Of a stretch of DNA of 39,514 nt, positions 23,604-33,410 are shown piece after piece. The DNA comes from Mariprofundaceae bacterium (lineage in GTDB: Bacteria > Pseudomonadota > Zetaproteobacteria > Mariprofundales > Mariprofundaceae), in the NCBI GenBank assembly GCA_026994965.1, contig JALWPO010000329.1, forward strand, positions 1 through 39,514. Reading direction: 5' to 3'. Within the stretch, counting starts at the first letter, position 1, and every line of letters begins with the position of its first letter. A model generated the notes under the pieces. That model ran no database searches. It saw nothing but the letters and a program-made list of their open reading frames with translations, and was not told where the DNA came from. The position numbers and the translations under genes are program-made.

Positions 23604-23655
23604 AATTCCAGATACCTCTGGAAGTATTGGGTACTAATCTTGTTGAAGGCTGCTG

Positions 23656-23841
23656 ATGACACCAGAGCATATTTTAAATGCAGTAGCTATGGCTTGTGCT
23701 TTTTTAGGCGCGTGGATTATTCAAGTTCAAATGCGAGCGCATCAATGTACCAAGCATCAAAGAAGTGCTGGTGTGTTGGCTTGGATTATGGCTATGCTTT
23801 TGTGGGTTGTAGTTATTGGTTTATTTTTTAAGCCGATTTAA
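23656..23841 (+). CDS. Small hypothetical membrane protein (61 aa, two hydrophobic segments)
   Basis: MTPEHILNAVAMACAFLGAWIIQVQMRAHQCTKHQRSAGVLAWIMAMLLWVVVIGLFFKPI; no clear RBS. Confidence 0.5.
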   Translation: MTPEHILNAVAMACAFLGAWIIQVQMRAHQCTKHQRSAGVLAWIMAMLLWVVVIGLFFKPI

Positions 23842-23963
23842 TTGCAGAGGAGCGGTGGTGATAGCAAAGCAATAATATCAAAACAAAAAAACAATTGTGT
23901 CCGAATTTGCTAAATAATTGCCATAAGCGCAATCCTGAAATAGCGTTTGTCTATGAGGCAACA

Positions 23964-24809
23964 ATGGCTATCCTAAATGAATTTGGCAGCAGTTGGACTG
24001 AAACCAAACTATCTATCCTAAAGAAATACATCTCTTTTTACACTACAGCTCTATCCAAACAGCCCTTCACGCTTGTATATATTGATGGTTTTGCAGGCAC
24101 AGGCGAATGCAGAATCAAATTAAGTGATGGTCGGAAGGTTACAATCCCAGGCTCTGCAAAAATTGCTTTACAGAATGAACCGCCTTTTAAATATTTAATT
24201 TTCATCGAAAAAGATGGTAAAAAAGTAGCGGCTTTGAAAGAACTATGTGAAAAAAAGAATGCAAGGTATGATACTTTCATATTCCATGCTGATGCAAATA
24301 AAGAGTTAGCTCGGGTTTGTGAATTTCTTGATAAGAAAAGTATGCGTGCTGTAGCTTTTATTGATCCATTTGGTATGGAAATACATTGGAAAACACTTGA
24401 GAATTTAGCTGCAACAAAATGTGTTGATATGATTTTTCTTTTTTCCTTAAGTGGACTTTACAGACAAGTCGAAAGAAAAATAAAAGAAGACTTTGATGAG
24501 CATAAAGCTACTTCCCTTGACCGTTTTTTAGGCACCCAAAATTGGCGTGATGAGTTCTACGAAGAAGAGAAACAAACGAATCTCTTTGGTGAGCCAGAAG
24601 GCTATAGAAGAAAGCTTGATTACATGGGAATGCTAGAATTTTCAAAAAAACGAATGGCTGAAATCTTTCCTTTTATTTCAGATCCTTTACTGCTGCCACA
24701 AAAAGGTGCACCACAATTTGCTCTCTTTTTAGCAGTCTCAAATGGGAACCCCAAAGCATTTGCCCTCGCCAAAAGAGTTTATGCAGATATTACGAACAAA
24801 TACGAATGA
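23964..24809 (+). CDS. tcmP: Three-Cys-motif partner protein (TcmP-like), predicted Rossmann methyltransferase fold
   Basis: FTLVYIDGFAGTGECRI, PGSAKIAL, RAVAFIDPFGMEIHWKTL, ending ALAKRVYADITNKYE; start set at MAILNEFGSSWTETKLSIL. Confidence 0.8.
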   Translation: MAILNEFGSSWTETKLSILKKYISFYTTALSKQPFTLVYIDGFAGTGECRIKLSDGRKVTIPGSAKIALQNEPPFKYLIFIEKDGKKVAALKELCEKKNARYDTFIFHADANKELARVCEFLDKKSMRAVAFIDPFGMEIHWKTLENLAATKCVDMIFLFSLSGLYRQVERKIKEDFDEHKATSLDRFLGTQNWRDEFYEEEKQTNLFGEPEGYRRKLDYMGMLEFSKKRMAEIFPFISDPLLLPQKGAPQFALFLAVSNGNPKAFALAKRVYADITNKYE

Positions 24810-25559
24810 CTATAAATACATCTCATTTCCTTGAGGGTACTGATTGTATATTCGCCCCTTAAGTGCCCGACCATTTCTATGTTTGTCTCTTTTTATTCCA
24901 TCAGAGCCCCATGTGCCCCATTGTTTAAAGAAGAATGATACGTTTGATTGCTCGCACTGCTTCTGAATTGACTCAACCCAAGTTTGTTCCATTGGTCTAG
25001 CTTTTGATCCTGATTCTCCACCAACAATTACCCAATGAATACCCTTAAGAGAGATGTTTCCAATGTCTTCCAGCAAAGGTTCAACAGAAAGGAACCGTAT
25101 GCTTGCATTAACCTGTCGAAGATAGTCAATCCGAGGGACTCCATATTCTTTGTCTTCAACAGACACCCCTAGCCAAACGTTTTCAGGTACAGGGTTCTTA
25201 GAAAAATACTCAGGCAGACGAGAGGCTCTTTTAGTAAGGATTTGATACGTATGATGAGGTGTTTCTCTAATAATATTAAGCACTTTATCAATATACTTAT
25301 CAGGGATGTCTTCGTGGAATAGGTCGCTCATGGAGTTAACAAAATAAACTGTAGGTGACTTTCGTCTTAAAGGTTGCTGCAAACGGTGTTCAATTAAACT
25401 TAACTCAAAACCATTGTCATAACCAGGTGTTCCCATTGCCTTGAGTCTTTTAGCCATAACTTCGGCATAACAATGCTTGCAGCCAGGTGAAATTTTTGTG
25501 CACCCTGTCGTTGGGTTCCAAGTTTGCTCTGTCCATTCAATTTTACTCTGGGTAGCCAT
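24810..25559 (-). CDS. Phage Gp37/Gp68-like DUF5131 family protein with three-Cys motif (radical-SAM/SPL-like)
   Basis: IEWTEQTWNPTTGCTKISPGCKHCYAEVMAKRL, ILTKRASRL, VWLGVSVEDKEYGVPRIDYLRQ, FLSVEPLLEDIG, VIVGGESGSKARPM. Confidence 0.9.
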   Translation of the reverse strand: MATQSKIEWTEQTWNPTTGCTKISPGCKHCYAEVMAKRLKAMGTPGYDNGFELSLIEHRLQQPLRRKSPTVYFVNSMSDLFHEDIPDKYIDKVLNIIRETPHHTYQILTKRASRLPEYFSKNPVPENVWLGVSVEDKEYGVPRIDYLRQVNASIRFLSVEPLLEDIGNISLKGIHWVIVGGESGSKARPMEQTWVESIQKQCEQSNVSFFFKQWGTWGSDGIKRDKHRNGRALKGRIYNQYPQGNEMYL

Positions 25560-25691
25560 AGGTTGGAACTATAGCGATGAACAGCGATTTTCTCTAGCTA
25601 TTTCAAATTTATTCAACATGCTCTTTTTGTAGAAAAAAGTTGTGTGTTTGTTTTTTGCTGGCAGTGATATGAAGCATGCTATTGATATGCG

Positions 25692-25789: not shown

Positions 25790-25873
<84 letters not shown>

Positions 25874-32124: not shown

Positions 32125-32200
32125 GGGCGCTTAGCTCAGTTGGTAGAGCACCGCCCTTACAAGGCGGTGGCCGCAGGTTCGAGTCCTGCAGCGCCCACCA
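32125..32200 (+). tRNA. tRNA-Val (anticodon UAC)
   Basis: GGGCGCT/AGCGCCC acceptor, CCGCC-CTTACAA-GGCGG anticodon arm, GGTTCGAGTCC T-arm, ACCA end. Confidence 0.97.
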
Positions 32201-32231
32201 TTCCTTAATTAATAATTAGGAAGTTTTTTTT
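32201..32231 (+). terminator. Candidate AT-rich intrinsic terminator between tRNA-Val and tRNA-Asp
   Basis: TTCCT(T)AATT-aat-AATTAGGAA stem with one bulge followed by GTTTTTTTT. Confidence 0.5.
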
Positions 32232-32277
32232 GAATCAATGCATTCTATTGGTTGAAGGAATGTTTTTTGTTCAAAAT

Positions 32278-32354
32278 GGAGCGGTAGTTCAGTTGGTTAG
32301 AATGCCGGCCTGTCACGCCGGAGGTCGCGAGTTCGAGTCTCGTTCGCTCCGCCA
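32278..32354 (+). tRNA. tRNA-Asp (anticodon GUC)
   Basis: GGAGCGG acceptor, CCGGC-CTGTCAC-GCCGG anticodon arm, GAGTTCGAGTCTC T-arm, GCCA end. Confidence 0.97.
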
Positions 32355-32360
32355 CATTAA

Positions 32361-32396
32361 AAGGCTGCATACTCTTTTGGGTATGCAGCCTTTTTT
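32361..32396 (+). terminator. Rho-independent terminator after tRNA-Asp
   Basis: GGCTGCATAC tcttttg GGTATGCAGCC followed by TTTTTT. Confidence 0.9.
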
Positions 32397-32462
32397 GTAC
32401 CTGTTTTTTGTATGTATTTTTGCTAGAGTGCGTTTTTTAAAAAAATGTGGAAGGGAGTTTAT

Positions 32463-33410
32463 ATGCCACTGACATTAAATAATATTGCGACGCAGGGTAA
32501 GCATGGTTCTGCGATGATGCCGATTATTCAAGGTGTTGGTCGTGCAGCGATTGAAATTTCGGCTGTTTTGCGTGGAGCTGTATTTCGTGGTGCATTGGGT
32601 CAAGCTGGTGGGGAGAATGTGCAAGGTGAGCAACAACAACTTTTGGATGTGCTTTCCGATGAGATATTCTTGGATGAAATGCGTTCGACAGGTTTTGTTT
32701 GTGCTGTAGGCTCAGAAGAGCAGGAAGAATTGCTGGTCATTGATGAGTATAGTCATGCAGATTATTTGGTTTTGGTTGATCCCTTGGATGGTTCTTCAAA
32801 TTTGGATGTTGATGGTCCAGTAGGTACAATTTTCTCTATTGTGAAACGTAAAACAGCTAATACCGAACGCCCTCATGTATCGGATACTTTGCAATCTGGT
32901 CGTGAAGTGATTGCGGCAGGCTACGTTTTGTATGGCCCTTCTACGATGCTAGTGTGTTCTGTTGGTGAAGGTGTGGATGGATATACCTTTAATCCTGCAA
33001 CAGCACGTTTTGAATTAAGCCATGGAGATATGCGTATTCCTGCATCGGGTGGCTATTATTCAGTGAATGAATCCAATGCTGATCAATGGTTGGATGGTAT
33101 GGGCGCCAAACTTGAACATCTAAAATCTGAGACAGGTTTGGGTATGCGCTATGTGGGGGCAATGGTTGCTGATATGCACAGAACGATTTTGAAAGGTGGT
33201 GTATTCTTATATCCTGCAGATAGCAAAAACAAAACAGGTAAATTGCGTTTATTGTACGAAGCTATTCCTATGGGTTTTATTATGGAACAGGCTGGTGGGA
33301 AGGCTATGAGTTCAGGTATTGAAGTTTTGGATATTCAGCCAGAAGCCCTGCATCAACGTGTACCTGTATATTTGGGAGCAGGTAAGATTGTAGATACTTT
33401 ATTAGGCTAA
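32463..33410 (+). CDS. fbp: Class I fructose-1,6-bisphosphatase
   Basis: YLVLVDPLDGSSNLDVDGPVGTIFSIVKR, AAGYVLYGPSTMLV, RYVGAMVADMHRTILKGGVFLYP. Confidence 0.95.
   Translation: MPLTLNNIATQGKHGSAMMPIIQGVGRAAIEISAVLRGAVFRGALGQAGGENVQGEQQQLLDVLSDEIFLDEMRSTGFVCAVGSEEQEELLVIDEYSHADYLVLVDPLDGSSNLDVDGPVGTIFSIVKRKTANTERPHVSDTLQSGREVIAAGYVLYGPSTMLVCSVGEGVDGYTFNPATARFELSHGDMRIPASGGYYSVNESNADQWLDGMGAKLEHLKSETGLGMRYVGAMVADMHRTILKGGVFLYPADSKNKTGKLRLLYEAIPMGFIMEQAGGKAMSSGIEVLDIQPEALHQRVPVYLGAGKIVDTLLG

Follow-up and report, generated by a model that had tools for sequence, protein, structure and literature searches.

A mobile TcmP-DUF5131 gene pair of the PDC-M41 type in a Mariprofundaceae bacterium, a candidate two-enzyme nucleic-acid-modifying defence module

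Two enzyme genes that face each other and meet at their stop codons raise the question of what their products do together. Such a pair lies at positions 23964-25559 of a 39,514-nucleotide stretch of DNA from a Mariprofundaceae bacterium (the whole stretch analysed is called the window here). The locus is an intact, mobile and uncharacterised module of the PDC-M41 type, comprising the following features:

23964..24809, plus strand: TcmP, short subfamily (PDC-M41A), a predicted RlmJ-like SAM-dependent methyltransferase of 281 aa; motif I DGFAGTG (41-47), motif IV DPFG (134-137)
24810..25559, minus strand: DUF5131 / Gp37_Gp68 (PDC-M41B), spore-photoproduct-lyase-like, predicted radical SAM, 249 aa; C20-X6-C27-X2-C30, fourth cysteine C202
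24807..24812, no strand: tail-to-tail junction of abutting stop codons (TGA on plus, TAG on minus), zero intergenic space
23604..25683, no strand: accessory stretch containing the pair and a 61-aa ORF, missing in congener G003 (~65 bp there)
25790..25873, plus strand: tRNA-Leu(tag) at the edge of the variable stretch

Both ORFs are where the original prediction had placed them, on the strands it gave, and contain the motifs it quoted: YIDGFAGTGE and FIDPFGM in TcmP, and GCTKISPGCKHCYAE (CX6CX2C), SVEPLLEDI and VGGESGSKARPM in DUF5131. TcmP starts with ATG at 23964 and stops at 24807-24809, a TTG at 23895 opening a longer ORF, and DUF5131 reads from 25559 down to 24813, with its stop at 24810-24812. 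The genes are convergent and do not form an operon; promoter and terminator scans gave results no better than shuffles. The two proposed families hold up in an HMM search, TcmP scoring 190 bits against NCBIfam TIGR04474 'three-Cys-motif partner TcmP' (cut-off 53) and DUF5131 scoring 367 bits against Pfam PF07505, formerly Gp37_Gp68 (cut-off 28.9). The 'three-Cys' label needs narrowing, as the three-Cys protein is DUF5131 itself and TcmP is the partner of DUF5131. All key residues of both families are intact in the window copy.

The pair had been put forward as undescribed, which is correct for its function only. As an entity it is already listed as an anti-phage candidate, PADLOC-DB v2.0.0 of 2023 containing both genes as PDC-M41 and a long-TcmP sister system as PDC-M30. 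The window pair matches both PDC-M41 models strongly (PDC-M41A 227 bits, PDLC04635 E 9.2e-68; PDC-M41B 376 bits, PDLC04639 E 1.6e-113). The PDCs of this release are 'guilt by embedding' candidates, described as without experimental validation (PMC10855318, PMC12988326). In the papers searched on three-Cys-motif/TcmP, DUF5131, Gp37/Gp68, PDC-M41 and GMT-wHTH, no functional study or mechanism was found.

Rather than being present in all close relatives, the pair is absent from 10/10 congeners, neither family scoring over its cut-off in any of those examined, which speaks against a housekeeping gene pair. A single contig with flanks syntenic to congeners speaks against an assembly chimera, and the nature of the products, both large intact enzymes of catalytic families, against a toxin-antitoxin system. 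Both flanks occur without the pair in three congeners, with a homoserine-kinase-like gene on one side and tRNA-Leu/tig on the other. Between them lies only a short spacer in G003, and other small genes in G002 and G009. Because congeners have the flanks without the pair and with differing contents, the stretch is an intergenic site next to tRNA-Leu whose contents vary. The G+C content of the cassette is 0.385 vs 0.423 for the window, and no integrase gene was seen in the variable stretch. A 61-aa hydrophobic ORF at 23656-23841, inside the part missing from G003, has no Pfam match. The window copy belongs, in a tree of DUF5131 sequences, to a clade of 19 (support 0.89), 13 of which come from virus-classified contigs. 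The pair ranges over Proteobacteria, Chloroflexi, cyanobacteria, actinobacteria, Deinococcus, haloarchaea and phages, and is mobile, being carried by prophages and plasmids.

In the genome and viral sets surveyed, TcmP is tied to DUF5131. Among 200 relatives, DUF5131 is found in 18 genomes and is adjacent in 12/12 with a TcmP over cut-off (P 3e-15, for co-occurrence alone and with shared ancestry ignored). In 399 genomes of the phylum, 41 of which contain DUF5131, the short TcmP adjoins it in 8/8; in one case a long TcmP lies between the two. A TcmP profile built from 8 diverse members was too divergent for scanning the collection, and one from 3 closer members worked; in this genome scan DUF5131 lies within 2 kb of TcmP at 80/80 further loci. 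The same holds for 34/34 evaluable viral contigs, and the expected recurrence as neighbours, phages and plasmids included, is thereby confirmed at a level far beyond chance. Strong purifying selection acts on both genes (dN/dS 0.04-0.07 in three close pairs), and their distance matrices correlate with r 0.63, the maximum of 999 permutations being 0.19. The linkage of TcmP to DUF5131 is obligate, and the two almost certainly share a joint function.

The arrangement of the genes is unusual. Of the pairs at the 80 genome loci, 58 converge and abut, exactly or nearly; in 19 both genes run in the same direction with TcmP leading, and in 3 another gene intervenes. Among opposite-strand pairs of the genome and viral loci, 76/76 are convergent and 0 divergent. 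The coding 3′ ends of convergent relatives often overlap by ~40 nt; those of the window pair meet stop codon to stop codon. The pair of Gordonia phage BaxterFox is convergent too; there, DUF5131 next to TcmP is unannotated (KU963263 ~32200-32928, plus strand; L192 5969-6979, minus strand), and the record calls opposite-strand gp39-gp41. At some loci two TcmPs from different subfamilies share a single DUF5131, which suggests that TcmPs are exchangeable specificity modules around one radical-SAM protein.

TcmP has the hallmarks of a class I SAM-dependent methyltransferase: a Rossmann fold, an intact SAM motif I and an acidic residue after β2. Its AlphaFold model (pLDDT 94.0, pTM 0.91) first matches DUF519 and E. 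coli RlmJ with moderate Foldseek TM-scores, and the SAM-cyclising enzyme AzeJ appears behind RlmJ. Pfam RlmJ (PF04378) gave no match up to E = 1, a direct PDB sequence search with either protein of the pair returned nothing useful, and a PDB search with the TcmP profile placed RlmJ best but weak (E 0.13). The TcmP model picks up RlmJ genes in relatives, and hhalign pairs the TcmP and RlmJ profiles at probability 95.9 (E 5.3e-9), covering the Rossmann core, with motif I aligned and DPFG placed on the RlmJ DP-Y motif. In motif I, D41, F43, A44 and G45 are invariant and G47 is present in 61/62 sequences; the acidic E/D82 after β2 is found in 62/62, as are the D and P of motif IV, DP[FY]G. The RlmJ catalytic motif DPPY is not in TcmP, DPFG is also carried by an archaeal Trm1, and some haloarchaeal TcmPs have no recognisable DPxG motif. 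TcmP is homologous to RlmJ yet has a Trm1-like DPFG motif, a combination that is new. RlmJ is the m6A methyltransferase of 23S rRNA A2030 and Trm1 a tRNA N2-guanine methyltransferase. Since the targets of both are exocyclic purine amines in structured RNA, RNA is proposed by analogy as the substrate of TcmP, with a little less than even confidence.

DUF5131 has the fold expected of a radical-SAM enzyme, its predicted structure (AlphaFold pLDDT 91.5) being a partial TIM barrel. The top six Foldseek matches are all spore photoproduct lyase (SPL; prob 1.00, E 2.9e-4 to 1.9e-3, with moderate TM-scores of about 0.5), followed by mixed TIM barrels including lipoyl synthase and viperin. C27 and C30 are invariant, and C20 and C202 are present in 56/57 and 54/57 sequences, respectively; the spacing CX6CX2C is unusual compared with the canonical CX3CX2C. 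Against TIGR04471 (radical SAM mobile pair protein A) DUF5131 scores 92 bits, below the equivalog cut-off of 355, and it stays below the cut-off of every radical-SAM equivalog model; a PDB search with its profile found no supporting sequence match. Phages often carry DUF5131 as a solo gene, and the protein therefore probably has roles without TcmP. A short protein recurs near DUF5131, solo or with long TcmP, at four loci (L062, L066, L069, L071) and is possibly an alternative partner.

The place of DUF5131 can be taken by another protein. On Nostoc plasmid pC052_C, TcmP has as its neighbour a radical-SAM protein of the CX3CX2C type (PF04055 1.2e-9), and DUF5131 is not in the examined stretch of that plasmid. 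Relatives of this protein adjoin or lie near TcmP in 6/7 haloarchaeal plasmid stretches examined, and in Haladaptatus and Halocatena these pairs are likewise convergent. A canonical CX3CX2C radical-SAM protein can thus replace DUF5131 beside TcmP, a swap that is new. Aligned with the profile of the alternative partner (E 6.6e-4, at a probability of only 27%), DUF5131 has its three cysteines in register through a 3-residue insertion. The swap and the register support, short of proof, the assignment of DUF5131 as a radical-SAM enzyme. The methyltransferase and SPL-like radical-SAM-like protein of the original prediction are borne out as predicted classes by family and fold matches, and the two classes are very likely right.

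On plasmids, the pair keeps company with defence genes. Copies lie beside BREX (Nostoc), HamAB Hachiman (Agrobacterium), AbiD (Leisingera), Hna or an Hna-like helicase (S. meliloti and R. rhizogenes), a Type IIG restriction-modification enzyme (Deinococcus) and N6-methylase/McrC genes (Nocardioides). The Acetobacter plasmid copy has no defence neighbours. In six matched control stretches taken from other parts of these plasmids, no such defence genes occur, apart from one ambiguous NACHT gene. SMa2243 of S. meliloti appears next to hna in a differential-expression table (PMC12445080). On one viral contig HmaC adjoins the pair. On Burkholderia glumae plasmid p79s2p (L249), TcmP, DUF5131 and a second TcmP lie beside imuA, a Y-family polymerase, an error-prone DNA polymerase and another radical-SAM gene. 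Around chromosomal copies, Pfam finds mostly ordinary genes, and the clustering with defence is therefore clear only on plasmids and some viral contigs; PADLOC families near vs far from chromosomal copies number 87 vs 15, many of them overlapping models of few proteins and not usable as a statistic. In several proviruses the pair sits behind a CI-like repressor, and behind the repressor in phage BaxterFox. The slot after a repressor is usually expressed in lysogens. A defence role of the pair is probable.

The best reading, which we favour by slightly better than even confidence, is a mobile two-enzyme nucleic-acid-modifying defence module of the PDC-M41 type that works in two steps. The three-Cys loop of DUF5131 is three residues longer than that of CX3CX2C; it would bind a [4Fe-4S] cluster and cleave SAM to give a 5′-deoxyadenosyl radical. 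TcmP and DUF5131 most likely work one after the other on a single nucleotide, probably in structured RNA and less likely in DNA: TcmP would pick the site and methylate an exocyclic purine amine, and the radical enzyme would perform a second reaction, of the C-H or C-C kind, at the methylated nucleotide, or the order may be reversed. The modified nucleotide would interfere with phages or other mobile elements that enter the cell, making the pair a putative defence or superinfection-immunity cargo of prophages and plasmids. Of the nucleic-acid modification or repair/anti-phage module that had been proposed for this locus, modification in the service of defence is thus supported as the most likely reading.

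Two other readings are each improbable. In the first, the pair serves the repair of nucleic acids. DUF5131 would undo a photoproduct or other adduct in the manner of SPL, TcmP would be its targeting or chemical partner, and the carrier elements would survive damage or host nucleases with no blocking of phages. SPL as the best structural match, the frequency of solo DUF5131 in phages and the one Burkholderia plasmid copy among imuA and polymerase genes fit this reading, but a methyltransferase of rRNA type is not an obvious repair partner, the distribution is sporadic and the usual plasmid neighbours are defence systems instead of repair genes. In the second, the pair modifies the DNA or RNA of its own carrier, which thereby evades host nucleases. 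Occurrence on conjugative plasmids and in phage genomes would suit such self-modification or anti-restriction, as would two enzyme classes that both modify nucleic acids. However, many copies are chromosomal without an obvious element around them, the window copy included; several proviral copies directly follow the repressor, at a position that is active in lysogens rather than in lytic growth; and a consistent link to phage DNA-modification genes was not seen. Least likely of all is small-molecule chemistry, a modified nucleotide of the viperin kind or a SAM-derived metabolite that poisons replication or acts as a signal: viperin and AzeJ are among the fold matches, but they rank behind SPL and RlmJ, whose substrates are nucleic acids, DUF5131 does not have viperin's CX3CX2C spacing, and TcmP aligns with RlmJ across the Rossmann core.

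Beyond the two-step defence module itself, a wider and rather doubtful possibility is that TcmP and its radical-SAM partner form a new class of anti-phage immunity, based on two-step purine hypermodification in RNA (or DNA), in which one radical-SAM enzyme works with several interchangeable TcmP methyltransferases that do the targeting, in bacteria and archaea as well as in their viruses. If confirmed, radical-chemistry hypermodification of RNA or DNA would join the known immune mechanisms, next to viperins. The RlmJ/Trm1 and SPL placement and the partner swap turn a 'domain of unknown function' into testable enzymology.

Among known systems, the window pair is identical in composition to PDC-M41, and is an isolated chromosomal cassette not embedded in a larger defence system. 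Compared with RlmJ and Trm1, TcmP combines the core of the former with motif IV (DPFG) of the latter, and differs from RlmJ in lacking DPPY and the Pfam match and in being accessory instead of housekeeping. SPL and SPL-like radical-SAM proteins (NCBIfam rSAM_PA0069, rSAM_mob_pairA/B) include the best fold match of DUF5131, which differs in its CX6CX2C spacing, its shorter length and its sub-cut-off equivalog scores.

The sister system PDC-M30 combines a long TcmP with the same DUF5131 partner family, and the TcmPs of both systems are homologous. It was found in 32/100 P. aeruginosa strains, 68.8% of those being phage-resistant, as a correlation only (PMC10855318). One long-TcmP/DUF5131 pair (L064, G125) lies between apparent prophage prohead protease and major capsid genes, as seen by eye only, and at another locus (L134, 8029-9237) a third divergent TcmP-like protein of 403 aa, with a weak PDC-M30A match, is found between DUF5131 and the short TcmP. 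The TcmP of PDC-M30 is about 360-440 aa long, often with a DQYG motif, has a C-terminal GMT-wHTH domain in the two copies checked and is mostly co-directional with DUF5131 in the set surveyed. The two systems also meet directly, as some loci hold both TcmP types with one DUF5131.
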